This document shows, piece by piece, positions 1 through 21,500 of a stretch of DNA of 64,000 nucleotides; the stretch's first letter is position 1, and each line of letters begins with the position of its first letter. The notes below the pieces were generated by a model. It was not told the DNA's origin. It searched no databases and was given only the letters and a program-made list of their open reading frames with translations. A program made the translations under genes and the position numbers. Source of the DNA: Ascidia mentula (taxonomy: Eukaryota; Chordata; Ascidiacea; Phlebobranchia; Ascidiidae); the NCBI GenBank assembly GCA_947561715.1, contig OX387197.1:3415001-3479000 (forward strand), given 5' to 3'.

Positions 1-1117
1 ATGAAATGGCATGGGCACCGATAAAACCATAAAGGTTATCGAGTCAGGCGCCCATGTAAAGGTAAGAAAGGAAAGGTAAGGGTATTTTTTGCTGTTCACA
101 TAGTTTGCTATTTTAAAGTGCATATGACACGGTCATGGCAATTTTGCGTAAAACTAAAGGTACATCTTTGTATTCCAGACATCGAATCGTTTCAAACATG
201 GGAGAATCCACAAATTACGTTACTTCAAAGGTCAGGACAAGGACAAAATGTTTTTTTGTGTGTGATGTCAAAACTTTAACCTCATCTTTGTGTTCACTTT
301 AATTTGATGATTCCAACATTTCTAGTTACAACTATATTGCGAAAAATACATTAGTGGTTGATTGTGGCGAATTAATCATATCATTTATGACGCGAACTCC
401 TAGGCAACGCTACTGTCGGACGAAAAGTGGTACTATGACAGAATAACAGTGTAGTGTTGCCTAATCAGCTAATTTGGTATCTCTGCGGTCTTTGTCAACC
501 TCAAAATGTAATTACTTATATCTTTTGCTGTGAGTGGACAAAACGACAATGCTAAACTAATGGTTTGTCTCTGTCGTGTTTTCAAAAGTTCATGTATCAC
601 GTTAGCGATCATAAATCCTTTAACCACAAGAATACCCTGTCCCAGTAACTGTTTTATTATTACACAACTAAATAAGACATAATAAGTCGAAACAGCCGCC
701 ATCTGTCTGCAGCTCAAATTAACATCAAAATCCGTTTGTTGCACTTGTTTACTTGTTGTGCCCTGTTTAATGCAAAACTATACTAAATCATTTTTACAAT
801 ATTTTCCATTCCTACTCATAAGGTTTGCTGCCAGCACTCGCACGACTAAAGCTCCTTCTATGACGTCACGCAACAATAATCTCGCTTTCGCACGATTTCG
901 TTCGCTACGGTTTAAACGTAACTTTGATCAGCTGTATCTCAGAAACCAGTCGCCGTATCAAGCTACGTTTTTTGGCAAAAATGTTTAAAAATGATGACCA
1001 TCTCTTAGTTTAATTAGTAATATGCTTTATTTTTCCGTGTCACATGCACTTTAAACCGTGTCTTTTAAAGGTTTAAACCACGTTGCTCTTGTGTTAATAA
1101 GTTTACCAAACACTTAC
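1..1117. other. Left edge; no gene firmly recognised
   Basis: This stretch should hold the continuation (exon 6 onward) of the minus-strand ARM-array gene, but I cannot identify it. In the array the next exon normally lies 220-360 bp past exon 5, and nothing with the matching sequence is present there. A minus-strand open piece at 500-570 with usable splice borders has only vague similarity. At 11-61 on the plus strand a short open stretch (MGTDKTIKVIESGAHVK) ends at a good GTAAG donor and looks faintly like an ARM helix, but it is too short to call. Confidence 0.4.
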
Positions 1118-4100
1118 CATGATCCCTTTCGTGTTCATGGCGTACCAACTTAGCAAATCAACAACTTCCATGACTTTCAAAAATTTCTCATTATTGCTTG
1201 ACATTTTGTGGAGAAGTGATGCCGACATCAAGATGATTTCGCCTTCCGTCTGCAAGTAAGGAAAAAGCAACAGTCAGTATCAGAAGTAACAACAAAAGTG
1301 CGACGTAACAACAAATGTGCGCTTCATTTATGTTTATACTACGTTGTGTTGTCTACAATATACCAATGTTGCTGAAAGAGAGCTTTAGGCAATTTCAAAT
1401 ATTGCAATCATAGCTAAAGTGTCAAGATAAAATTGCTTCGTTTCGTCGTTGTTACTTGAATGAAATATGACTTTTTACTATTACAAAGCATTCGGCAGGA
1501 CGTAAGCATTGAAATCAATTGTTTAGTTTCCATTGGTGTGTGTTCAGAGACATAAAAGTAGACTTGCCTCTAAATTTTGTTTAAAAGTGTCTTTGTACTT
1601 TTCTAGGAAGGCGATCAAGTTTGACAGAATTCCACAAGCTGCAATATTTTCAGATAATTTATCACTAACTGCGCTGAACTTCATACAAACACTCAAAAGT
1701 TTTTGAATATTTTTCCAGTCCTCCCTGCAATATACATTTAAACCAAATTACCTTCTTGTCAGACAAGTCAATGAAATATTTCATGATTTACGACAGATTC
1801 ACCCACCAACACAAATTGTAAACAAATGAAAATCTTAACAAACTTAACGCTCTATACAACCAACAAGTAAATTTTGACATACGTTTCCAACTTGGCTTTT
1901 TCTTCTGAATAAATGTCAATGTAGACTTTAAATATATCGGCAGCGCCACCTAGCGCCAGGTAATCGCCGACTTTCTGCAAAATTATGTCACAAAATCAGA
2001 TTCACTACGTTGGTGATCACGAACATGAACTTGACCAACACCAACCTTAATTGAGCTGCTGTTCTCAAGTCGGGCCCACGAGAAATACTTCGACAAGGCT
2101 TCAAGAATGGTTAATGCTGACTTCCCCATGCATTTATGTTCCTTGTCGGTTTCCATATCACGCTTGGCTTCATCCATATAATGTTTGAGATAAAATAGGA
2201 AACCTGGTAGGCCCAAAATAGTAATTTCTATTCAACGATTAACGCATTATTTTAGAGTTTTTCTAAGGTGAATTTCTGTCAATCAGAATTTACATTTTTT
2301 GTCAATTGGCTTGGTTTCATTTTCCACGTTGACGGACAATTGTTCTTCAGTTGAAAAACGTTCGACATTTCTCTCCCTAAATTTGTTGACCAGAATGAAC
2401 GTACAACAAACTGACAAGCTGTGGTTTTCATCGATCTAACAAAACAGGGAACTTATAGAGGAAAAAGCTTTTGTATTTAAGTGTGGAGTGTTATTACATT
2501 ACAAGATAGTACTGAAAAAAAATTAAACATCATAAAGCTTGTAAAGAACAATCTTGAAGTGGAAAATTGTTTGACTTCGACGTACGGTTTGTTAACCATG
2601 ACTTTTACATTTTAAACAAGTTACACTTGTGTTTATGGGGTTATCAAATACTTACCATAATTCCTTTCGTGTTCCTAGCGTACCAACTTAGCAAATCAAC
2701 ATCTTTGCCTTGGAAGAATATTTGGTTGTTGCTTGGAAACGAAAGTTTGTTGAGAAATAAAAGCGACTCAACGACGATTTTGCCTTCCGTCTGCAAGTAA
2801 GGGATAAGCATACGTCTTTGTGAGATCCAGGAACTCAAGTGATAACAACACTTCATGTGATACTCTTTTGTAGTACGTTCAGTTAGTTACATTATACCAA
2901 ATAATATGTAAATGCGCCATACGAAGTTGCAAATATGGTAATTGTATCAAAAGCAACAAGATCCAAAGGCTTGTATTCGCTGTCTCTAGGACGGAAAACT
3001 AATTAATATTACAAAGCATTTGGCATAAGTGGTAAAATAATATGCTTCATAAAATTAAATGTGTTTTGAAGACTAACCTCAAAATTTTGTCGAAAAGAAT
3101 GCTTGTACTTTTGTAGGAAGGCAAATGCATTGGACGCAATTCCACAAGATGCAATCTTTTCAGCAAACTTATCACTAATTTCCTTGAACTTCAAACAAAC
3201 ATGGAAAATGTTTTCAACATTTTTGCAGTTGATCCTGCAATAAAACAATTTAACTTAATTTTGGACATCTTAACTAAACACTGTGATACATTAATGCAGT
3301 AACATGATGTTTTAAGTACGACAGGGTAACCCACCAACACGTTTAAACCTAACAAAACAACAAGAAAATCTTGAGTAGTGTATAGGTGACAGAGGAATGG
3401 AACAAACTTCCGTCCTGTCTCAGAGATTCGCTTTCGGATTGGTAGACTGGAAGGAGAACTCTTTCCTTTTCCGCCCAATGCATTTTAAATGTCAAATAGT
3501 CTTTGATTGGGAGTATGATACAATTCTATCTGAACTGGAAAGTACGCAGAGAGACACTCTCTCTCTCTCTCTCTGTGTGATTATATTTTAGGTTGTCCCC
3601 GGTTTGACCTTTGTCCGTTGATCATTGAACATAATTTCGTCAAGTTTCTATTTGATTTACTTCGATGTACGTCGACCTGATTGGTCTTTGTCTTCGCAAA
3701 GCTAAATCGTTTTTTGGCGTGTGAATTGTTTTCTGTATGCTTGGGTCGGCGTCATGATTTTTATGACATCGCGCTGTCGATATGCTCCCGGATAATCACT
3801 GTAGATAATTACAACAGCTTAAAGCAAGACATTCTTTAGTATGTAAAGAGGCCAGACCACATGATATCCAGGGTGGGTAAAAGAATAGTGCAAGCGTTAG
3901 GGAAATAGCGGAAATAAAAATTCATGTAGGAATGGACAGTGGTATTTCGCTCGTTTTCGGGGCGCTTTACGCTGCGCTTTTGAACCTGCGCCTGCTCCCC
4001 GCGCACGCTTAGGTCGACTTGTGGAAAACTGCACGTGCGGTGGCAGAATGTTGACGAAAAGCGCGACTTTTGGTTCAGCCTTGCAGAGCGTATTTAAAAC

Positions 4101-7100
4101 TGGCGCGTGTTTATCGAAAGTCGAAACATAAGCAAACACTCTAGCTTGCAGACGAAACTTGTCAGGTGTTTCTAAACGACAATGAAATACCAAATACCCA
4201 TGCGCGGCCGATGTGACTGCCCTGGGTGAATAAAACGCGAAAGATTTTACTGCTTTCACACATCAAGTCATCAAGAATAAAAAAGGTTTCGCACGCCTGT
4301 CTCCGCAGAGGTAGGAGCACCCTGCACGAATTCAATTGTGTTAGGTAGGGTCTCGTACGCAGGCTGTCATTGACCATAGCACCAAATAATCCGTTCTGAA
4401 CATTGTAATGAGGTTTTTCTTTTGTTATACGCACGACAAAACAAGTCTTTTCACTCCCAGTTGGCCCAGAAATAAGGCATTTAAACGAGTGCGCAAATCC
4501 CAAATTATTACAAAAGCGAATAACGGAATTTAAATGATTTCCACCTACCGCTGCGCTTACAAATTCACGCCCCTAACTCGCACACGATCAGGTCAAACTG
4601 ATAATTGTACGAATCGAGAATTGCAAACAATTATAACAATGTGAAATTCGATCGCAATACCTACTAAAATTTCAGACTAAGATTAGCTTCAGAAAGAGAC
4701 ACATAAAATACTTTTGACAATATTTACGTGTGCGACATCAAAACAATTTTTTCCAAATTGTCTGATTGTACACGACCTTTGTGATGAAAATAAATCGAGA
4801 CTAAAACAGCTATCAACTGGACGGACAAAAGTCAGATCGGGAACATGACTAAAATACAATCACAGACAGAGAGAGTCCCATAAAAATGCATGTGAAGGAA
4901 TTAGCATTCCTTCCCTGTCTCACAATCGGCAAGAAAATATCAGAAACAGGAGGTAAGTTTCTGAGATACTTATCCTGTCACCTATATACTACTATTGTGG
5001 CTCACGTTTCCAACTTGGCCGTTTTGTCCAAGTAAATGTCAAAGTAGGCTTTAAAAATATCGGCAGCGCCACCTAGCGCCAGATAATCGCCTGAATTCAA
5101 ATTCGTCTAAAACAGAAACAGATTGTAAAAGCTGGTGATCGCGCACGCGATCATACCAACCCTAAAGAAGCTAAAAAAATTCAGTGTATAGAATGTATGA
5201 CCCTTGTACTTCAACAGGGCTTCAAGAAGGGCTGACATTGACGGCCCCATGCGTTTATGTTCCTTGTCAGATTCCAAGTCACGCTTGGCTTCATCCAGGT
5301 AATATTTGAGGTAAAAAAGAAAACCTGGTACACGTTAAAAATTGTTTCTATTCTGCAACAAACACGTCATTCTGAGAGTTTTTCTTAGTTGTTTTCATTA
5401 TCGATTTATCAGATTTGCTCTCATATGACACGTTTGAGTTTTTTTTTAAGAGAAGGAATTGTATACATGTATTTTTATGTTACTTTTTTTATCAAATGAT
5501 TCCGTTTCCTTTTCCATGCTCCCTGACATTCCGTAATCGTTTGCAACAATTTCACCAATTTCATCTTTAAATATGTTGACCAGAATGAACGTACAACAAA
5601 CTGACAAGCTGTGATTTTCATCGATCTAACAAAACAGGGAATAAAGGAATAACTTTGGATTTTAAATAAATAAGAAAAATAGTATGTTTTGCCATCCACA
5701 TTCTTGGTGCCTCTCACCGGTGTTGGGCAACCTAATTATCAAAGAACCGTTTCCAAATCCCGGTCTTTACAGTCACTATATGATTTGTGGAGTGATATTA
5801 CATTACAAGATTGTACAGACTAAAAATGCCCATAATTTTAAGGTTCGGAAAACATAATGAACCGTTAAAACGATCTTGTGAGTTGAAAATTGTTTGACTT
5901 CGACGTACGGCTTGTTAACCATGATTTTTACATTTTAAACAAGTTACACTTGTATTTATGGGGTTATCAAATACTTACCATAATCCCTTTTGTGTTCATG
6001 GCGTACCAACTTATCAAATCAACATCTTTGCCTTGGAAGAATATTTGGTTTGGAAACGAAAGGAAACGAAAAGCTCTGCTTGGAAACGAAAGTTTGTTGA
6101 GAAATAAAAGCGACTCAACGACGATTTTGCCTTCCATCTGCAATTGTAGTACGTTCATTTAGTTACAATATACCAAATAATATGTAAATGCGCCAAAACA
6201 AGTTGCAAATACGGAAATTGTATCAAAAGTAACAAGATCTAAAGGCTTGGAATCGTTGTTTCCGGGACGGAAAATGGTTTAACATTACAAAGTATTCGGC
6301 ATAAGTGGTGAAATTATTTGTTTCATGAAATTAACTGTGTTTTGAAGACTGACCTCAAAATTTTGTCGAAAAGAATGCTTGTACTTTTCTAGGAAGGCAA
6401 ATGCATTGGACGCAATTCCACAGGCTGCAATCTTTATAGCAAACTTATCACTAATTTTCTTGAACTTTAAACAAACACGAAAAAGGTTTTCAACATTTTT
6501 GAAGTCTTTCCTGAAATAAAACATTTAACCAATTTACTCTCACGTCTGAAAACTTGAATATTTTTTATTGCTCTTCATCAATACAGTCACAGGATGTTTG
6601 AAATACGACAGGTTTACTTACCAACCCAAATTATGAAACGCAAGAAAATGTTAACAAACATAACACCTAATAATATAATAATAAGTAAATTTTAACTCAC
6701 GTTTCCAACTTGGCTTTTTCGTCCGAATAAATGTCAAAGTAAATATTTAAAACTGGCGCGTGTTTATCGAAAGTCGAAACATAAGCAAACACTCTAGCTT
6801 GCAGACGAAACTTGTCAGGTGTTTCTAAACGACAATGAAATACCAAATACCCATGCGCGGCCGATGTGACTGCCCTGGGTGAATAAACCGCGAAAGATTT
6901 TACTGCTTTCACACATCAAGTCATCAAGAATAAAAAAGGTTTCGCACGCCTGTCTCCGCAGAGGTAGGAGCACCCTGCACGAATTCAATTGTGTTAGGTA
7001 GGGTCTCGTACGCAGGCTGTCATTGACCATAGCACCAAATAATCCGTTCTGAACATTGTAATGAGGTTTTTCTTTTGTTATACGCACGACAAAACAAGTC

Positions 7101-9775
7101 TTTTCACTCCCAGTTGGCCCAGAAATAAGGCATTTAAACGAGTGCGCAAATCCCAAATTATTACAAAAGCGAATAACGGAATTTAAATGATTTCCACCTA
7201 CCGCTGCGCTTACACATTCACGCCCCTAACTCGCACACGATCAGTTCAAACTGATAATTGTACGAATCGAGAATCGCAAACAATTATAACAATGTGAAAT
7301 TCGATCGCAATACCTACTAAAATTTCAGACTAAGATTAGCTTCAGAAAGAGACACATAAAATACTTTTGACAATATTTACGTGTGCGACATCAAAACAAT
7401 TTTTTTCCAAATTGTCTGATTGTACACGACCTTTGTGATGAAAATAAATCGAGACTAAAACAGCTATCAACTGGACGGACAAAAGTCAGATCGGGAACAT
7501 GACTAAAATACAATCACAGACAGAGAGAGTCCCATAAAAATGCATATGAAGGAATTAGCATTCCTTCCCTGTCTCACAATCGGCAAGAAAATATCAGAAA
7601 CAGGAGGTAAGTTTCTGAGATACTTATTCTGTCACCTATATACTACTATTGTGGCTCACGTTTCCAACTTGGCCGTTTTGTCCAAGTAAATGTCAAAGTA
7701 GGCTTTAAAAATATTGGCAGCGCCACCTAGCGCCAGATAATCGCCAGATTTCACCAAATTCGTCTAAAACAGAAACAGATTGTAAAAGCTGGTGATCGCG
7801 CACGCGATCATACCAACCTCAAAGAAGCTAAAAAAATTCAGTGTATAGAATGTTTGACCCTTGTACTTCAACAGGGCTTCAAGAAGGGCTGACATTGACG
7901 GCCCCATGCGTTTATGTTCCTTGTCAGATTCCAAGTCACGCTTGGCTTCATCCAGGTAATATTTGAGGTAAAAAAGAAAACCTGGTACACGTTAAAAATT
8001 GTTTCTATTCTGCAACAAACACGTCATTCTGAGAGTTTTTCTTAGTTGTTTTCATTATCGATTTATCAGATTTGCTCTCATATGACACGTTTGAGTTTTT
8101 TTTTAAGAGAAGGAATTGTATAAATGTATTTTTATGTTACTTTTTTTATCAAATGATTCCGTTTCCTTTTCCATGCTCCCTGACATTCCGTAATCGTTTG
8201 CAACAATTTCACCAATTTCATCTTTAAATATGTTGACCAGAATGAACGTACAACAAACTGACAAGCTGTGATTTTCATTGATCTAACAAAACAGGGAATA
8301 AACGAATAACTTTGGATTTTAAATAAATAAGAAAAATAGTATGTTTTGCCATCCACATTCTTGGTGCCTCTCACCGGTGTTGGGCAACCTAACTATCAAA
8401 GAACCGCATCCAAATCCCGGTCTTTACAGTCACTATATGATTTGTGGAGTGATATTACATTACAAGATAGTACAGACTAAAAATGCCCATAATTTTAAGG
8501 TTCGGAAAACATAATGAACCGTTAAAAGAACGATCTTGTGAGTTGAAAATTGTTTGACTTCGACGTACGGCCTGTTAACCATGACTTTTACATTTTAAAC
8601 AAGTAACACTTGTATTGATGGGGTTATCAAATACTTACCATAATCCCTTTTGTGTTCCTAGCGTACCAACTTATCAAATCAACATCTTTGCCTTGGAAGA
8701 ATTTTTGGTTTGGAAACGAAAGGAAACGAAAAGCTTTGCTTGGAAACGAAAGTTTGTTGAGAAATAAAAGCGACTCAACGACGGTTTTGCCTTCCATCTG
8801 CAATTGTAGTACGTTCATTTAGTTACAATATACCAAATAATATGTAAATGCGCCATAACAAGTCGCAAATACGGAAATTGTATCAAAAGTAACAAGATCT
8901 AAAGGCTTGGAATCGTTGTTTCCGGGACGGAAAATGGTTTAACATTACAAAGTATTCGGCATAAGTGGTGAAATTATTTGTTTCATGAAATTAACTGTGT
9001 TTTGAAGACTGACCTCACAATTTTTTCGAAAAGAATGTTTGTACTTTTCTAGGAAGGCAAATGCATTGGACGCAATTCCACAGGCTGTAATCTTTCTAGC
9101 AAACTTATCACTAATTTCCTTGAACTTTAAACAAACACGAAAAAGGTTTTCAACATTTTTGAAGTCTTTCCTGAAATAAAACATTTAACCAATTTACTCT
9201 CACGTCAGAAAACTTGAAGTATTTTTTAATGCTCTTCATACAGTCACAGGATGTTTGAAATACGACAGGTTTACTTACCAACACAAATTATGAAACGCAA
9301 GAAAATGTTAACAAACATAACACCTAATAATATAATAATAAGTAAATTTTAACTCACGTTTCCAACTTGGCTTTTTCGTCCGAATAAATGTCAAAGTAAA
9401 CTTTAAAGAGATGAACAGCGCCACTTTTTGCCAGAAAATCTCCGACCTCCTGTAATACCTCATAGGTTTTACACAGTATACGCACAAATATGATTTTTGA
9501 GTATTATCGTCTCTTTAATACTAACTTGACGCGTAACATTCTCTGAATCTTTTATATTAAGCAAGACTTCAACAAACGCTAAAGTCGATTCCCCCATGCG
9601 TTTATGTTCCTTGTCAGATTCCAAGTCGCGCTTGGCTTCGTTCATGTATTTTGCCACTTGATTCAGGTAATCTGTGAAGTTAACATTTCAATTCAGTTTG
9701 GTGAAAGAATTAAGTATACTTACCTTTGCCGTGAAATTTCCGTACTTCCAAAACAGGCCCGCCGCCCTCATCCAT
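1118..9775 (-). CDS. Tandem-module armadillo-repeat protein (3' end not found), paralogue of the neighbouring ARM-TIR gene
   Basis: Exons in coding order: 9775-9724 (start ATG at 9775); module 1 9671-9526, 9449-9358, 9170-9014, 8797-8639, 8282-8141; module 2 7981-7818, 7763-7660, 6510-6354, 6137-5979, 5625-5484; module 3 5324-5161, 5106-5006, 3234-3078, 2790-2656, 2435-2294; module 4 2203-2046, 1974-1883, 1724-1568, 1249-1118. Each module repeats exons 2-6 of the ARM-TIR gene: a DEAKRD..DKEHKRMG helix, a YFDIYSDEKAKLE segment, a leucine-rich ARM-like exon, a DLISWYARNTKGI exon and a short exon. All borders are splice-compatible and intron phases match, so 2712 nt (904 codons) read without a stop. 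ARM repeats form protein-binding solenoids; the partner and role are unknown. Whether a TIR domain follows to the left cannot be seen. The last exon-4 copy uses a GC donor. One duplicated half-exon (6695-6743) has no acceptor and is probably skipped. A decayed gene that still keeps its frame is possible but less likely. Confidence 0.72.
3374..4993 (-). mobile_element. Polinton (Maverick/adintovirus)-like fossil, short and broken
   Basis: The element sits in the intron between exons 3 and 4 of module 3. Its ends form imperfect inverted repeats, both beginning AGTAGT and sharing TATAGGTGACAG just inside; an AG start is usual for Polintons. Six-base flanks (ATCTTG and ATTGTG) could be a worn target duplication. 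Inside, on the minus strand, is a region resembling the Polinton packaging ATPase (4162-4503), with a P-loop-like stretch and a later DDLM..LFTQGSH stretch, and an overlapping unassigned region with a basic tail (3897-4259). At 1.6 kb against the usual 15-20 kb, most of the element is missing. A (CT)n tract lies near 3553-3577. The family call rests on the ATPase resemblance and termini only. Confidence 0.55.
4091..9400. repeat. Recent tandem duplication, two units of about 2.65 kb
   Basis: Unit A is 4091-6743 and unit B is 6744-9400. They align at a nearly constant offset of 2653-2660 bp. Long stretches differ only at scattered bases, and exon 4 differs at only a few codons between units. 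The left breakpoint lies inside the Polinton-like fossil and the right one inside exon 3 of the ARM array, so the junction at 6743/6744 fuses fossil DNA to a half exon. A short TTTAAA match near both breakpoints could have mediated the joining. Assembly of two haplotypes in series would give the same picture. Confidence 0.85.
6744..7647 (-). mobile_element. Second, partial copy of the Polinton-like fossil
   Basis: This is the right-hand part of the element at 3374-4993, copied by the host's 2.65-kb tandem duplication and not by a separate insertion. It keeps the ATPase-like region (6815-7156) and the AGTAGT-type terminus at 7647, and its other end is the duplication breakpoint. The two copies are nearly identical, so the duplication is recent, whereas the two termini of the full fossil differ, so the insertion is older. 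Confidence 0.6.
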
Positions 9776-11133: not shown

Positions 11134-11238
11134 CGGTGGCCCGTAAGGGCAACGCACGAAAATGTTTAAATCGGTAAATATATTTTAAAATCGACATATG
11201 TTGAAATTCCGATTGGTGAATTTTTAAAATCGACAATC

Positions 11239-11487
11239 GTAGTTTCAGTATTCGCCGATCGGAATTTCAATATTCGCCGATCGGAGTTTAAGTATTCGCC
11301 GATCGGAGTTTCAAAATTCACCAATCGGAATTTCAATATTCGCCGATCGGAGTTTCAATATTCGCCGATCGGAGTTTCAAAATTCACCAATCGGAATTTC
11401 AATATTCGCCGATCGGAATTTCAATATTCGCCGATCGGAGTTTCAAAATTCACCGATCGGAATTTTAATATTCGCCGATCAGAGTTG
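11239..11487. repeat. 22-bp tandem repeats, left arm
   Basis: About 11 head-to-tail copies of a unit reading roughly AATTTCAATATTCGCCGATC. Variants alternate AATTTC/AGTTTC and ATTCGC/ATTCAC. Each unit carries the palindrome CCGATCGG or a one-base variant. Confidence 0.85.
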
Positions 11488-11880
11488 GATTTTAACTTAT
11501 ACCACGTTCATCTGCATGCTCTAGGCAAGCTATGTGCAAAATTTAAAACATCCTACGGCCCGGAAAGGTTTCTAATGTTCGCCTGTATCAAGCGACTACA
11601 CCACTATCTGCTTCGTGTATGTTAGCATCTAAATTTGCAAGTATTGCTGCCTCAATATATCCCTATGTGAAAAAAGGAATCGTCAGAATTGACAACGGAT
11701 GAGTGCTAAAGTTGCACTTGATGTTTTTGGATGGTCACTTTGTTATAATTTGTGTACCTATATACTCGATTGGTTTTTTTTGATAATTCATTTGAAGTTG
11801 TGATCACTCGTGCGTGAAATATATTTCGTTGAAAAAAAATCATTTCGCCGAAATGACAGTAGTTTCAAAGCATGTGCATA

Positions 11881-12115
11881 TCGAAACTCCGATCGGCTAA
11901 TATTGAAACTCCGATCGGCGAATTTTGAAACTCCGATCGGCGAATATTGAAACTCCGATCGACGAATTTTGAAATTCCGATTGGCGAATATTGAAACTCC
12001 GATCGGCGAATATTGAAATTCCGATCGGTGAATTTTGAAACTCCGATCGGCGAATACTTAAACTCCGATCGGCGAATATTGAAATTCCGATCGGCGAATA
12101 CTGAAACTCCGATCG
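11881..12115. repeat. 22-bp tandem repeats, right arm (inverted)
   Basis: The reverse complement of the left-arm array, about 10-11 units, with the same mix of variant units. The matching variant order on the two arms suggests that they copy from each other or were made by one inversion-duplication. Confidence 0.83.
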
Positions 12116-12672: not shown

Positions 12673-15600
12673 TTAAGTCTTTACCATCCCTTCTCCATCT
12701 GACCCTTGGCCGCGATCTCCAATTTCGTTCATCAACTTTTTCATCGAATCATCAAAAGTTTTCAGATCATAAAAGTTGAAACATAATTTCGTGCCCACGA
12801 TGAACCCTACGTAGGTGACAAAAGTAAGTTGAGCCAGAAGGAAACGGGCTCTTAATACAACTTTTCTTGTTGTATAAAGAGCAAGTGACGATGTCGCGAT
12901 AGGGAAACGATAAGTCAGGCGATTTTCATGTGACCAGTCCAGGGTTAAGGTTCAACATTTACCGAAAGCATGAGATTTTGAACTTGCCACAAGTTTCTTG
13001 CAAAGCCACTGAACCTCATGATCGCTATATTCAATATAACCGCCAAGTGAAGGCCTTTAGAGTAACGCTCTTTTGTCTTACAATGTATTATCCGCCTATT
13101 GACTTTTATACAGGAACCTACCCAGCCATCCATTTGCATCGAAACCTTCCTGAAGTCGAAGAGGAATGACGTCCTTGTTTCTTTTCTGAGCGTAAACCGC
13201 CTCTAATCTGCAAAAGGGAAGGTGGACAATCACACTAGATTTTATTTTTGTTGCTAAAACATGCAGACAATAACATCTCCTCTATGTTATCCAAGTTATT
13301 GTTTGATCCAAACTGTCTTTTCCATTATAAAGCAATAGGTGTTGCATAGGAAATTATAATTCATACGATATTTGCAAATTACCCAAGCCGGCCTATTTTA
13401 CTAATGCATTTCTGCATGTTGAAATTACATTGGGTTTAAATATGGACGCTGTCACGACGATACAAGCCCTTATCACCAAACACAAAATATAAATTCCGGT
13501 GTGCATCTTATCAAACCTACATTGATAAACTTCCCTGGGTAAAACTTTTCTTTCCTCACAGTTACCTGCAGTTCTGACTATCCTTGTACTTTTGAGACAT
13601 GCATATTAACACCACAGCTGATTGTTCAACCGCATCTGCCATCGCATCCAATGTGTCTCCCTTCAATTTATCTTCGTCCATCCATACGTTGTAACCACTT
13701 GATTCAAGTATGTCTTTCACCTAAAGAAAATGAATTCTTTCCTAATGCTAAAATCTCAACAAACCTGAGTGTGGACCGAACAACATTATCACTAAAAGTT
13801 TTAATCTGTCCAATTTTTTTTATGTTACGTCAATTAACTATCTTATTTGGTAGAAGTGATTTAACATGAAGAAACTATAAGCTTCGCTGTACATATAAAC
13901 AAAAGTTTGAGTGCATTGACCTGTTTAACGTCACTTAGATTGTCCCTGTGGTAACTGAGCATGACGTGCTTCTCTTCACCGAGTGGAAGATTCGGTTTCG
14001 ATTCGTGTTCGTTCTTACACATAAACGTGAATTGTTGGAAAGAGAAACAATTCTGTGATAAGTTTTCAACAACCGAACTTACCGGAATAAGACCTTTTAA
14101 CACCCACAGTGTCCCGGATGCAGCAAGTTGAAGTTTGCTAAAAAAATTAAGTTGTCAGACTATACTGTTTTTTGAAACATTCGCAACAATGAAACCGAAT
14201 CTGACCTTGAATCGTGACCTTCAATTTCCTCCAGTTTCTTCATGACCTCGGTTTCATGAGTGATCATGAATTTGTTCTCTTCCACAAACGATAAAGCCCA
14301 GATGCATTCAACAGCCGTTGTTTGTTCCTCGATGTCACCTATTTTAAGGATACAAATGAAGATAGTCAGGTGAATGGCGGCAATATGTAAAGTTATTTCA
14401 AAATAGTATAAAGTATTACCTTTACCAACGTCAACTATCAAAAGGATATAAAATAGGTTTTAATCTGTTTGGGATAGCGTGGAACATTACTTTGCTTAGA
14501 ATAATTCACCTTTTTCTATGACCGCCATTAAACATGGCAGTGCCCCACTTTGAAGAATTTTCAAGCTATTCCGGTCGTTGTTGGCGAGTTTCGTTAAACC
14601 AACAACCAGCTCCCGTGCAGAGAAACCAACTGGCGAACTGTGGTCAACATCTTGCATGGCATCTTCTAAATCCTGGCGAAACACAATTATTGTATTATTT
14701 ACCGACATGAAATGACTACAAGCACAAACTGTGGTGGATACCGTAGCCTATAATCGAGTGTAAGTCGCCCTCGACTTTAAGCCGCCCTCGATTGTAAGCC
14801 GCACGTAAAAGTTAAAGGCTAAGTTAGGTGCCCTACAACAATAACTGCCGACAAATCTATCGCTTAAAATTGTGAGGTAAGCTGATAACTCTGTGTGATA
14901 GAAGGTATTGGTACGGCAAAGCGAGTTAAAGGTGAAGTTCGTCGAAACATACAGCTAAAAAATGTGAGCCGCCCTCGATTCTAAGTCACACAAACGGTTA
15001 AAAAGTTTATAAGCCTCGGCTTACAATCGAGTAAATACAGTATATCATTTCGTTGGTAATTTTACGTGGGGAAAATTTGGCATTATGCATCATATTTTTC
15101 ACCCTAACCCACAACTTACCTTTATAATGTAAGAGATAATTTCATCATCCGCAACATTTAAAACACCATTCCCCTCATCATGTGTGTGGACGAGGATAAG
15201 CATACAAGTAGCTGATAGACTCTCATATCCTCCAATCTACCCAAATTAGTGATCAATTGAGGACATTTACTCCATGTTATCAAAACTCACTTCTATCCCT
15301 TTCGTGTTGTTGGCATACCAAGCGATCAATTCAACTGCCTTCCTGTCTAAAAAAATGTTGTTATTGCTTGATCTGGCGCAATTGTAGAGAACCCCTGCCG
15401 AAGAGAGAACGACAGTTCCTTCTGTCTGTAAGATAGAAATAACCATAAATGTCATATCCATGCCGTCAACGCAGAAAAAAGCTTACCTCTAAATTTCGTA
15501 CAAAGCTTTCTTTAAGTTTTTCCAGTAGAGCAATCATGTTTGACAAAATTCCACAAGATTCAATCTTTTCTGATAGCTGGATGCTTAAATCGGCGTAGTT

Positions 15601-16398
15601 CATACAAACAACCAAAAGATTTTCAAGGCTGTCCAAGTCGTTTCTGCCATATACAAAATGCTAAGGTGAATATAAGGGAAAATAAATCAATTTCTTTAAA
15701 AGTTAACTTGTTTCACAATGTGTTTCGATAACCCTTATAAGTAGTTTGTCACAGTAAAACAAATCAGTTGCCACACCCTTTAAAACACGAAACAAAGCAC
15801 ATATGACTAACTCGTCCAATTTGGCTTGTTCGTCCGAGTAAATGTCAAAATAAACCTTTAAGATATCGGCGTCGCCCTCCAGTGCCAGATAATCGGCAAC
15901 TTCAGCCAAAAACTGAAAATCAAAAAAATATAATTTTTGTTCAAGTATGCAACCTACACCGGGGCCGGATACTAACTTTATCCGAACTGCTGTCTTCAAA
16001 TCGGTCATAGCTTTGCTTAACCAAGAATTCGACAAGGTTAGTTGCTGACTCCCCCATGCGTCTGTGTTCCTGATCAGCTGCCAAGTCACGCTTGGCTTCA
16101 TCCAGATGACGGTGTAGTTGTAACACAATACCTGTCACGTGAAAAATCACTCGGTCATCTGATCTTAAGTTCGACAGTCGCAGTTTTAATATTGTCAAGT
16201 TACAGGGATAGGCCAACGTCCATTCGCCAGGCGACCTTTGGTAGCCAGTTGTGATATTTCTTACTTTTTCCTACTTTGCCGGTTATAATGGATTACACTA
16301 GATTGCGATGACAATATTACCTAACGCATGCAACTTTTAGATTTCAAGCGCAAAATCTACTCACTTTCGTTGTGCAATTTGGTAATTATCTCTTCCAT
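12673..16398 (-). CDS. ARM-repeat protein with C-terminal TIR domain
   Basis: Twelve exons: 16398-16365, 16131-15977, 15912-15812, 15643-15487, 15425-15291, 15236-15120, 14672-14510, 14338-14206, 14137-13921, 13720-13566, 13207-13122, 12806-12673. They sum to 1587 nt and all intron phases fit, giving 528 aa. Residues about 1-350 are helical ARM-type repeats (for example TAVECIWALSFVEEN). The TIR domain starts near residue 389 with HVMLSYHR, followed by GYNVWMDEDKLKGDTL, an AVVLICMS strand, NCRLEAVYA, then VIPLRL and GWLGF. Glu of LEAVYA (about 458) lies where SARM1-type TIR domains have the NAD-cleaving glutamate. TIR domains either scaffold innate signalling or cleave NAD+; which applies here is not shown. 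No signal peptide or membrane segment is seen, so it is probably cytosolic. Exon 9 contains a possible 69-nt in-frame intron (14082-14014) with a good donor and a weak acceptor; splicing it would give 505 aa. Confidence 0.9.
14741..15040. mobile_element. MITE in intron 6 of the ARM-TIR gene
   Basis: A 300-bp segment with imperfect inverted ends, starting CCGTAG/CTGTAT and continuing with related TCGAGTGTAAGTCG and TCGATTGTAAGCCG motifs. TA flanks both ends (14739-14740 and 15041-15042). The motif (AGCCGCCCTCGATT-like) recurs inside. It has no coding capacity. The superfamily is uncertain, with a TA duplication suggesting a mariner-type source. Confidence 0.65.
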
Positions 16399-18534: not shown

Positions 18535-21500
18535 TTAGATTTCCATCGGGTAACACAGGTCACCGGAAATATTTGAAGAATGACTGTCGGAAACAACCTC
18601 CACCGGTGCTTCCCCGTTTAATTGTGACGTCAGAATCTCGATTTCGTCTTCAAGGCCCTGTGAACGTTTGTACATTTGTACGTAGTTGGCCTGCAGCTGT
18701 TTCTGGTATCTGCAAAAAGAAACAAAAAATCTAAAGTTGCTCGAACGTGAAAAACGTCAGGAAGATACTTATATTTACCATCGCGTTTAATTAGAAGATA
18801 CAAAACACAATACAATTATCTTGCAACAATAAAATAAAAACTTTTTAAACTCAATTAAACATCCCATGAGCGGTACCTGATTACACGACTCTTCTCCTGA
18901 GCCCATTGCTGCCTTTCCTTTTCGAATTGTTTAGCTTGCATCGCGCTTCTCTCCTCTATTTCGTTAATACGACGCAACAACTCATCCGTGTCGATCTCAC
19001 TGGCACGTGACGAGCCACAGTCACGCCCCAGTGGCGCGAGGTAGTTTTTATCACCGTTAGAAGTCGCCAAAACGCCGTCAAGTCGACGCTCCAATTCCGC
19101 GATCACGTGATCCCGCTCGTCTAGTCTCGCGCTGAACTGCGCAGCCTCGGTTTCGCGTCGTTTAAGTTGAGAACAGAGTTCCCGGTTTCTCGTGCGCAGA
19201 GCGACCGTCTCGCCGGTTCTCTGGGTAAGTTCGATTTGTTTGTCCTTAAGTTGGCGTTTCAAATGCGCCACCTCGCCGTTCTTATGCTGGATGAGCGATT
19301 CGCTCTCTTCGAGGCGCCCCCGCAACTCCGCAGCGACATCTTGTTGTCGCGAATGCCTTTCCATGACGTCAGACATCGACTTGATCCGTTCCTCTAACTG
19401 CAAACGAAAAGGTTGCGTTGAATCACATGTGAAGATTATGAAAGTTATAATGTGTGTGGGAAAAATACCACCGATCATCTTCATCAAAATTATCACTCAA
19501 TAAACTTTTTAAATCCAGTGCCATTATTTCGTCACAAAGAGGCCTCTCTCGCTTGTCTGTTCGGCGACACGCTCGCCTCAGTAAAATGTGGGCGTTATTT
19601 CCCATGGGTTTAGAAACTCCATTTCAGCCTCTCGCATTTAACTTCTAAAGCCGTATGCTGCCAAACCATCAGACTACATGTTGTTCATTGATTTTGCTAC
19701 TTCTACGAATTTCAATACGATGACCCGAGTTTCGACTTATTTCGTTACATAAGATGAAAGTAATCATTCCAAGATACGTAACTGCCGAGTATTCAATGTT
19801 AATTCGCTTTGGCATTGAGCAGGAAATCGCTCGACAGGCTGGTTACAAGCGCGTGGTAAGTTTAAAAGAACCCAAGCCGCAAGGCCAGCAATCACTTCAC
19901 GAAAATCAATATATTTAAACACAAAAATAATTTGCAAAGTAAGTTAGGTTGAGGGTAGTGATTATTACCTCAACATTGGTTAGTAGAAGTTGTTTGTTTT
20001 CGTCTTTCGCAAGCTGGAAATCCCGCTCAAGTCTCTGCTGGTGCCTGAGAACCTTGGCAGTCTGGCCAGCAAAAAACATACCAACGTCAGTCGTCATTAG
20101 TAGCGATTAGAGGACGCCGTATTATTTGCTCTTAGCCTCAAGCATGCAGGTTCGAAGTAATGCAATATGTAAACACGGGCTTCAGCAAGCTGTTAGAAAC
20201 CGATAGGCGTAATTTATTCCCCATCCAACCTCGCACCGAGTACTTACGTTATAAACGTTTGTAAATCGTGCTTTACCATGTGTAATAAATGCGCATGTGC
20301 AGTTCTGTTTGCTTGGAAACTAGTGTATTACCAAGTCATATAGCCCAACGATAGTAATACTTTTAAGGAGCCGGTACGTCGTATCACGTGACCTGCACCA
20401 GCGGCTGTGCTTTGATGTTAGATGGGGGGAGGGATATTATTACTAAGAGCGGTGGGCTCACAGTATTAAGTCCAATTATCGGGCGTTTGTCCAGCGCGGT
20501 TCGAGTAGTGTAAGTGTGTTTTCATGCCCTGGGCATCTTTAGTTGCAAGAAATGTTGCTTAAACCACAGTTCTGTGAGTTGTGTGCTGAAGACGACGCAT
20601 AAACCCCAAACCAGGATTTACTTTTTAATGTATTTATTCAATATTTTTCAAAACTCCCATCAAGTTGACAAAGGACTTTAAAACAAGGCTTTCAATTTAC
20701 ACTTGAAAATGCAGTTATTATTGTAGGGACATAACTACACATGTCGTTCCCACACGAATCGCCGTCATTAGGGCACTTTATGACGTAACAAATACGATTA
20801 TGCCGCGGGCGGTCAACAACCATACGACTTATTGCACGGGCGTCAATAAAACTACTTCTTTCAGAGTTGGCAACTTGGTAGTGGAATTATTACATGGATG
20901 AGCAAAGTTTCAGCGCCAATTGGATTTGATTTCTCTGCCTTACACGCATGTTTAAGTATATAAGGAAGCATATCGCAATAGATGGGTAAACTTCTCCATA
21001 AACTTAATAATTTTAGTATTAGTTGGTTTAAATCAGCCAAATATTAGCAACAGAAACAAATCAAGACATGCATTAAGGTTACCATAACCATACACAACCA
21101 AACCAACCTGAGCTCTCAAATCACTCGCATATTTCTTCTGCATCAACTCAAAAACCTCGTCCTCCTTGAAACCCGCCTCGTTTGGCTGCTGCTCGCCGCG
21201 GTCTTCGTACACCTGTCAATCAAATGAACAATAGTGAAGTCACGTGATGGGTAGGGCGGCGCTTGAAGCGATAAAGCTTTCGACATCGCACGTCAATCAA
21301 AACCGATTACGGTGCTTTAGAAATCGGCCGCGACTCCAGTGTTTAATGATGTAATCGCGACATTATGCGGAAACTCAGTCGGCGTGGGACTGACTAACGT
21401 GGTTAAGGATGTCCGCAGGTTGTTTACAAGCTACATACGACCGTCCAAGTCGTGAGAGGGCTTAGCTACCACCAAGTGACATTGAATGAGTTCACCTGAC

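Follow-up and report, generated by a model that had tools for sequence, protein, structure and literature searches.

A one-module ARM-TIR gene at the end of a tandemly expanded family in the ascidian Ascidia mentula

The gene analysed here (the query gene), on the minus strand at 16398..12673 of the window, a 64,000-nt stretch of Ascidia mentula DNA, is a one-module, end-of-array member of a tandem array of 13 units extending over 185 kb, and is of the smallest kind in the cluster. At the DNA level it has a complete exon structure encoding 505 aa, with armadillo-type (ARM) repeats preceding a TIR domain and no SAM match, while most other units of the array carry extra ARM blocks, which in some of them can be read through in frame. 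On balance, we favour the reading that the product is a soluble protein belonging to the invertebrate ARM-TIR class, a one-module member of an expanded family in which the ARM part would be regulated or would recognise a target and the TIR domain would act by assembly. This large tandem family was absent from the original prediction made for the locus.

A complete gene of 12 exons had been predicted, and the gene is indeed complete, open and fully spliceable, but it comprises 13 exons (Table 1). The boundaries of exons 3 and 4 were fixed by comparison with paralogues, yielding the 505-aa model, and exon 1 resembles the MDE..K exon 1 of the array relatives as judged by eye only. Its exon order recurs in 10 further aligned copies in the array, of which one lacks exon 13 and another contains a stop; the gene is therefore not a chance assembly of reading frames.

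Table 1 Exons of the query gene and elements of the neighbouring unit g2, in window coordinates
Feature	Position	Strand	Remark
Query exon 1	16365..16398	-	start codon, phase 1 donor; spliced model
Query exon 2, ARM module	15977..16131	-	spliced model, module search
Query exon 3, ARM module	15812..15912	-	donor set using paralogues
Query exon 4, ARM module	15487..15643	-	acceptor set using paralogues
Query exon 5, ARM module	15291..15425	-	spliced model
Query exon 6, ARM	15120..15236	-	spliced model
Query exon 7, ARM	14510..14672	-	includes part of Vac8-matched stretch
Query exon 8, ARM	14206..14338	-	spliced model, Vac8 match
Query exon 9, ARM end	14083..14137	-	spliced model
Query exon 10, linker and TIR start (HVMLSY)	13921..14013	-	spliced model, TIR_2 match
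Query exon 11, TIR core (WMDEDK, SQNC)	13566..13720	-	spliced model, TIR_2 match
Query exon 12, TIR with conserved Glu (LEAVYA)	13122..13207	-	spliced model, TIR alignment
Query exon 13, TIR end and stop codon	12673..12806	-	spliced model
g2 exon 1	9724..9775	-	multi-module neighbour, no TIR exon found, chained reading not open
g2 module 1, e2-e3-e4-e5	8639..9671 (9671-9526, 9449-9358, 9170-9014, 8773-8639)	-	
g2 linking exon e6′ (first)	8141..8282	-	
g2 module 2, plus extra partial e3	5979..7981	-	
g2 linking exon e6′ (second)	5484..5625	-	
g2 module 3, e2-e5	2656..5324	-	
g2 linking exon e6′ (third)	2294..2435	-	
g2 module 4, e2-e5	1118..2203	-	remainder of g2 left of window

The 505-aa protein contains a single TIR_2 domain at residues 367–486 (E 8.2e-20, 72 bits against a cut-off of 28), and the predicted HVMLSY, WMDEDK and LEAVYA motifs all lie inside this domain or at its edge. 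The ARM-like helices that had been predicted in front of it were borne out by Vac8, the closest relative of the ARM part among solved structures (E 1.4e-15 by profile and 1.1e-6 by single sequence), whereas the Pfam Arm match, at 14.2 bits (E 0.046), did not reach its cut-off of 20.6 bits; of the two domain models proposed for a profile search, TIR thus succeeded and Arm fell short. Pfam returned no SAM match for the protein, either at E ≤ 1 with the initial 537-aa model or at E ≤ 0.1 with the corrected 505-aa model, in line with the prediction, and the closest SAM match on the same contig, among the matches listed at E ≤ 0.01, lies at position 4860162. With a TIR domain, armadillo-type repeats and no SAM match, the query has the features of the ARM-TIR class. 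This combination, originally regarded as an unusual variant, is already a named class separate from SARM in the sections on ARM-TIR of reports on the oyster Crassostrea gigas (PMC4346834) and on Aplysia, for which 10 such proteins are given in the text and 11 in a table (PMC9334734).

The SARM1-like order of the original prediction also holds, and this identical ARM-then-TIR order, together with a match of the TIR profile to the SARM1 TIR (E 0.0015), would be expected of a SARM1 orthologue that has no SAM domains and keeps an NMN/NAD-gated ARM lock. We consider such an orthologue very unlikely, however, as the TIR of MyD88 matched about equally well (E 0.0017) and no SARM1 chain occurred among the 37 PDB matches of the ARM profile at E ≤ 1, in a sequence-profile search that can miss distant relatives; likeness to SARM1 in domain order was accordingly not matched by evidence of common descent. 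In addition, the H(D/E)YQ loop, which the relevant passage of PMC7075850 describes as characteristic of the SARM1 group, was absent from the query and the other chained array proteins in a motif search. SAM matches cluster elsewhere in the genome, on C69 (5553936, 5554822 and 5556491), making a separate SARM1 gene possible, with no TIR_2 or TIR match beside them among the matches listed.

Across the array, exons e6 onward are present in all 13 units and TIR exons in 11, the unit search having found none in g2 and g11. Ten units contain extra upstream copies, up to about seven, of a five-exon ARM block, e2-e3-e4-e5-e6′, which encodes about 229 aa. The splice sites of these copies fall mostly at one homologous position (e2 acceptor in 34 of 36, e4 acceptor in 42 of 42, e5 donor in 41 of 41), the exception being the e3 acceptor, for which AG stands at one position in 23 of 40 copies and 9 nt upstream in 19, both being possible in one copy. 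These homologous positions provide an independent check, whereas the tally of lengths modulo 3 follows automatically from how the sites were searched and carries no weight as evidence.

With e5 ending in phase 0 and e2 beginning in phase 1, a direct e5-to-e2 junction would be out of frame, and we initially favoured mutually exclusive cassettes, with e2–e5 blocks chosen singly as in a Dscam-like gene. However, a linking exon e6′ (phase 0 to 1), which restores the frame, was found in all 27 internal intervals with scores of 127.5–213, whereas 27 shuffled intervals gave no score above 40. Four of the 10 multi-module units moreover stay open on straight splicing, reaching five modules and 1402 aa, and together these results led us to reject the cassettes. 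A short linking exon was also supported in 14 of 14 non-redundant intervals, compared with one or two in ten crude shuffles, leaving a Dscam-like gene extremely unlikely. The donor of e6′ lies at the usual 142 nt in 18 of 27 cases; seven of the other nine show a GT at 115 nt, and the remaining two, with neither, offer only another GT of the same phase. Straight splicing is also open in the single-module units g5 and g6 and in the query's own model. Since e6′ is found in every internal interval and several units read straight through, ARM length appears to evolve by duplication of whole five-exon modules. Separately, an in-frame stop follows the e5 donor within five codons in 27 of 27 internal e5 exons and in 3 of 14 e5 exons adjoining e6; ARM-only isoforms produced by read-through of e5 were considered, and a shared ancestral intron could also account for these stops.

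Some units bear marks of decay: g13 has an in-frame stop and has lost the conserved Glu, g2 and g11 have no TIR exons, and mechanical chaining gives no open reading in six of the 10 multi-module units. It is nevertheless highly unlikely that the query, or the greater part of the array, is a non-functional remnant of decaying duplicates, as the query is open over its 13 exons with intact sites, and its TIR gives dN/dS values of 0.25–0.39 against nine stop-free relatives. The corresponding ARM values were 0.31–0.40, for which the ARM models of multi-module relatives mix exons from several modules. Among the modules, dN/dS had a median of 0.45 over 555 of 561 pairs from 34 complete modules, with two pairs at or above 1; six pairs were dropped (outside 0.05 < dS < 1.5 or failed), and the 10 incomplete groups among the 44 led by e2 were excluded. 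For e2 and e3 of the last modules, dN/dS reached 1 or more in 9 of 35 pairs and the ratio of sums over 13 recent pairs was 0.80, while in the very recent modules of g7 dN was about equal to dS. Constraint on the last modules is thus weak, which relaxation explains no less well than diversification does.

In its TIR, g10 comes closest to g6 (dS 0.45), yet the e6–e8 exons of these two units are far apart (dS 1.05), indicating block exchange, and near-identical modules occur inside array genes. A general contrast between a homogenised TIR and a diversified ARM part, initially hinted at by mixed-module ARM models, was not upheld with constant exons, as e6–e8 were more diverged than TIR in only 25 of 52 usable gene pairs (of 55).

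The Glu in exon 12 is present in 13 of 13 aligned TIRs, and in the profile alignment it coincides with the Glu of RPS4 and Cat1 that we take to be their catalytic residue, agreeing with the predicted Glu at the catalytic position of NADase TIR domains. Cat1 and RPS4 are NAD-consuming TIRs and were the top profile matches of the query TIR among solved structures, Cat1 scoring better (E 1.6e-9) than SARM1 or MyD88. We propose that the ARM superhelix would be the regulated or recognising part and that its release or clustering would bring TIR domains together. The assembled TIR may then process NAD+ through the conserved Glu, a step to which we give not quite an even chance; failing this, it would simply recruit partners.

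The residue four positions before the Glu weakens the enzymatic step, being Asn in 12 of 13 TIRs and His in one, where the RPS4 and Cat1 alignments have Trp. This replacement, and MyD88 TIRs scoring about as well as SARM1, would suit a non-enzymatic scaffold, an ARM-TIR adaptor that assembles through its TIR with the TIR domains of TLR or MyD88-type proteins without cleaving NAD; such an adaptor is a serious possibility, though short of an even one, given that the Glu is kept in all 13 diverged TIRs and that Cat1 and RPS4 are the best solved matches. A scaffold would also accord with a statement in PMC7075850 that more than 70% of TIR domains overall have this Glu and that its presence need not correlate with activity, which makes the Glu a weak argument by itself.

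Judged from expansion and domain type, the two features on which an immune role is based, the array probably consists of immune-signalling genes. The lineage-specific expansion, the exchange of ARM and TIR blocks and the near-identical modules inside genes suit a family of innate immune sensors or adaptors better than housekeeping NAD control. A bolder proposal, which we regard as rather unlikely, is that the family is the chordate equivalent of the TIR immune receptors of plants: cytosolic ARM-array TIR proteins whose sensing superhelix would be reshaped by birth, death and exchange of 229-aa modules and joined to a conserved TIR that processes NAD, with the query as the minimal, one-module form. 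The Ascidia mentula genome has at least 45 TIR_2 matches and the 185-kb array, compared with four TIR entries for Ciona intestinalis in a 2008 table that lists 134 for amphioxus (PMC2575513). If expressed, the array would form a natural series of one-, two-, three- and five-module versions of one ARM-TIR design, and could reveal whether an ARM domain can keep a TIR silent in the absence of a SAM octamer and whether the number of modules determines the range of recognition.

Among known systems, SARM1 shares with the query an ARM part before the TIR and a Glu at the catalytic position, whereas the query has no SAM match, no SARM1 chain among the PDB matches of its ARM profile, Asn at the pocket Trp position and no H(D/E)YQ loop. 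The CRISPR-associated Cat1 and the plant TIR protein RPS4 resemble the query most closely in TIR profile and in the aligned Glu, but have Trp where the query family has Asn, and their partner domains differ from that of the query; a scan of genome contigs for a close bacterial relative, with one short pattern, gave eight matches, none of them confirmed. Vac8-type armadillo arrays are the best solved relatives of the ARM part, but they carry no TIR and serve a different function. The oyster and Aplysia ARM-TIR proteins, like the query, combine an armadillo-type fold with a TIR domain, and growth by ARM modules is not described in passages on them in PMC4346834 and PMC9334734. By contrast, the Ascidia mentula family forms a tandem array in which ARM length varies by whole five-exon modules.

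The original prediction placed an open gene of ARM-TIR composition, SARM1-like in order and without a recognised SAM domain, in this window, and such a gene does read openly there: the spliced model of the query, in which the ends of exons 3 and 4 were fixed by spliced alignment of ten array paralogues, comprises 13 exons encoding 505 aa with zero internal stops. Pfam placed a TIR_2 domain at residues 367–486 (E 8.2e-20) and matched no SAM domain in the query protein, as predicted, while its Arm model scored under the cut-off. The ARM identity of the N-terminal part is assigned because a profile search against the PDB matched Vac8 (E 1.4e-15) and designed armadillo proteins. No SARM1 chain was found among the 37 PDB matches of the ARM profile at E ≤ 1, in a sequence-profile search that can miss distant relatives.

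The source assembly (195.8 Mb in 79 contigs) yielded at least 45 TIR_2 matches at E ≤ 0.001 (42 above the cut-off) and at least 62 exon matches to the query TIR, both counts being lower bounds, with two TIR clusters on the query's contig, arrays A and B. Searching with the query ARM part revealed that the complete genes of array A have many additional ARM exons lying between them, and scanning 264 kb with a profile for each exon produced 272 matches, 271 of them on the minus strand and none, within the scan, beyond 3245953–3431126. Array A comprises 13 units (g1, the query, to g13), each with one constant block (exon 6, e6, onward) preceded by one to about seven copies of e2-e3-e4-e5, a single copy in three units (g1, g5 and g6) and multiple copies in ten. 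TIR exons occur in 11 of the 13 units, all except g2 and g11. One internal module used as query had 148 genome matches, 146 in array A and two in array B, where the sole gene readable in full has one ARM block, its e3–e13 each matched once by exon profiles and its e2 unmatched.

Features of the query, the two arrays and other loci (C1, OX387197.1; other C numbers, further contigs of the assembly)
Feature	Location	Strand	Description
Query ARM-TIR gene (g1)	window 16398..12673; C1:3431398..3427673	minus	spliced model
Array A	C1 3.246–3.431 Mb	minus	at least 11 TIR units, query included
Array B	C1 2.29–2.36 Mb	plus	at least about 9 TIR units
g2	window 1–9775 and leftward		multi-module ARM unit, no TIR exons detected
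g11	C1:3274961–3285015		multi-module ARM unit, no TIR exons detected
g4			2 modules, 756 aa; chained, open
g5			single module, 518 aa; chained, open
g6			single module, 498 aa; chained, open
g7			5 modules, 33 exons, 1402 aa; chained, open; exon 1 doubtful
g8			3 modules, 986 aa; chained, open
g12			3 modules, 983 aa; chained, open; exon 1 doubtful
GC-AG intron at e4	array A (C1:3.25–3.43 Mb)		retained through most of the family; query donor GT
Minisatellites	window 11236–11486; 11878–12115		past query 3′ end
Open frames inside g2	window 4162–4572; 6815–7225	minus	136 aa, near-identical; P-loop-like stretch
Coiled-coil open frame	window 18855–19496	minus	Pfam Fez1, E 2.2e-20
More TIR_2 matches	C69:2659082–2683509; C52:875870–881318; C73:3001033; others		partly clustered; different exon structure
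TIR in single open frames	C67:18703235, 18706215, 18723423; C69:18.85–19.27 Mb		near full-length TIR_2 in single open frames; also TIR matches in 740–804-codon open frames
SAM matches	C69:5553936, 5554822, 5556491	one strand	inside 3 kb

The best reading of the e2–e5 copies is that they are ARM modules, each of ~229 aa, stacked one after another, with the query representing the family's one-module form. Among matches extending to the exon end, most splice sites lie at one homologous position in nearly all copies (e2 acceptor 34/36, donor 30/30; e3 donor 37/38; e4 acceptor 42/42; e5 acceptor 39/39, donor 41/41); the e3 acceptor is divided between two positions, and of 42 e4 copies 32 have a GCAA donor and nine a GT. 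Because e2 runs from phase 1 to 0 and e5 from phase 0 to 0, direct splicing of e5 to the following e2 would break the frame, a clash that raised Dscam-like mutually exclusive modules as an alternative; an in-frame linking exon, e6′, makes this alternative very unlikely. A short phase 0-to-1 exon candidate is supported by all 14 non-redundant intervals, against one or two in ten crude shuffles, and with full length allowed in the search e6′ is present in 27 of 27 internal intervals, scoring 127.5–213 (including a site bonus) against a maximum of 40 for the same seed in 27 shuffled intervals. It is usually 142 nt long and resembles e6 followed by an exon-1-like linker. Its donor is the weak point of the linking-exon reading: 18 of 27 copies have GT at 142 nt and 11 at 115 nt, and two have it at neither place but offer a different GT of the same phase; one copy with GT at 142 carries a stop upstream of the donor.

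When all exons of each unit were chained in order, with exon 1 picked mechanically, the multi-module units g4, g7, g8 and g12 were free of internal stops. The other six (g2, g3, g9, g10, g11 and g13) were not open under this mechanical chaining, several having exons missing or doubled. The stacked-module reading is preferred because e6′ restores the frame and four of the ten chained multi-module units are open. Separately, reading on past the donor meets an in-frame stop within five codons in all 27 internal e5 copies, against 3 of the 14 e5 copies adjoining e6; intron retention at internal e5 would yield ARM-only proteins.

Of the 44 e2-led groups, 34 form a complete module whose frame and sites are intact; dN/dS between these modules has a median of 0.45 (555 of 561 pairs), reaching 1 or more in two pairs. 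Among pairs that diverged recently (0.02 < dS ≤ 0.3), internal modules have a ratio of sums of 0.48 (26 pairs, two at ≥ 1), first modules 0.68 (4 pairs) and last modules 0.80 (13 pairs, two at ≥ 1); in the e2+e3 part of last modules, dN/dS is ≥ 1 in 9 of 35 pairs. Internal modules within a gene are often near-identical (91–94% among three in g7, 96–99% among three in g9), some with dN close to dS. In a quick tree, modules mostly cluster by position (first, internal or last), with single modules adjoining the last ones and two internal modules among the first ones. On synonymous distances, block exchange between array A genes has occurred, because the g10 TIR is closest to that of g6 (dS 0.45) while their e6–e8 are far apart (dS 1.05), those of g10 lying at dS 0.16–0.59 from eight of the other ten.

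A profile built from 13 TIRs of the Ascidia mentula genome matched, in the PDB, the CRISPR-associated TIR Cat1 (E 1.6e-9), the plant TIR RPS4 (3.6e-6), a SEFIR protein (8.2e-6), SARM1 (0.0015) and MyD88 (0.0017). The glutamate singled out earlier as conserved-looking proved invariant in all 13 aligned TIRs, and it aligns with a Glu of RPS4 and of Cat1, which we take to be their catalytic residue. Ten of the 11 array A TIRs retain it; g13, which has lost it, is also interrupted by a stop where its TIR begins. Four residues before this Glu, RPS4 and Cat1 carry a Trp, whereas the aligned TIRs carry Asn (12/13) or His (1/13); as aligned, the absence of this Trp speaks against a standard pocket. 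A TIR survey assigns ligand binding to the equivalent Trp and Glu in SARM1, and states that the Glu, present in more than 70% of TIR domains overall, need not track activity (PMC7075850), so the Glu, though real in the alignment, is no proof of catalysis. NAD cleavage by the TIR of the query family would be possible, if slightly doubtful.

Several other features lie near the query and elsewhere. The two minisatellites share the same type of 22-bp unit (ATCGGAGTTTCAATATTCGCCG or the reverse complement of it); they run in opposite orientations and lie ~400 bp apart. The first 136-aa frame of g2 had zero Pfam matches at E 0.01; the pair is possibly a mobile-element remnant duplicated along with an ARM module. 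We take the Fez1-matching frame to be an LZTS-like gene, and because of that match array A is bordered by such a gene. The TIR-containing single open frames are possibly intronless receptors, and the clustered SAM matches represent a possible SARM1 locus, with no TIR match beside them among the matches listed. The assembly also contains two weak GH6 matches (E 9.2e-6 and 1.1e-4), a mark of tunicate origin in that this family is not known from other animals.

The gene, its domains, the lack of a SAM match, the array and the module copies in frame are all directly readable at the DNA level. We commit to the query being a cytosolic ARM-regulated TIR protein of an expanded family, in which the ARM part would regulate the protein and the TIR domains would assemble; judging from its expansion and domain type, the family is probably immune. 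At the level of titles and abstract openings, with few subscription papers covered, we found no account of stacked ARM modules in an array of ARM-TIR genes and no report of tunicate ARM-TIR proteins; a 2008 table gives four TIR entries for Ciona intestinalis (PMC2575513). The query family differs from the SARM1 group in the H(D/E)YQ motif, which marks that group in the survey (PMC7075850) and was absent when looked for in the query protein and the other chained array proteins. ARM-TIR is a named class distinct from SARM in accounts of oyster (PMC4346834) and Aplysia (PMC9334734), and the query belongs to this same ARM-plus-TIR class.
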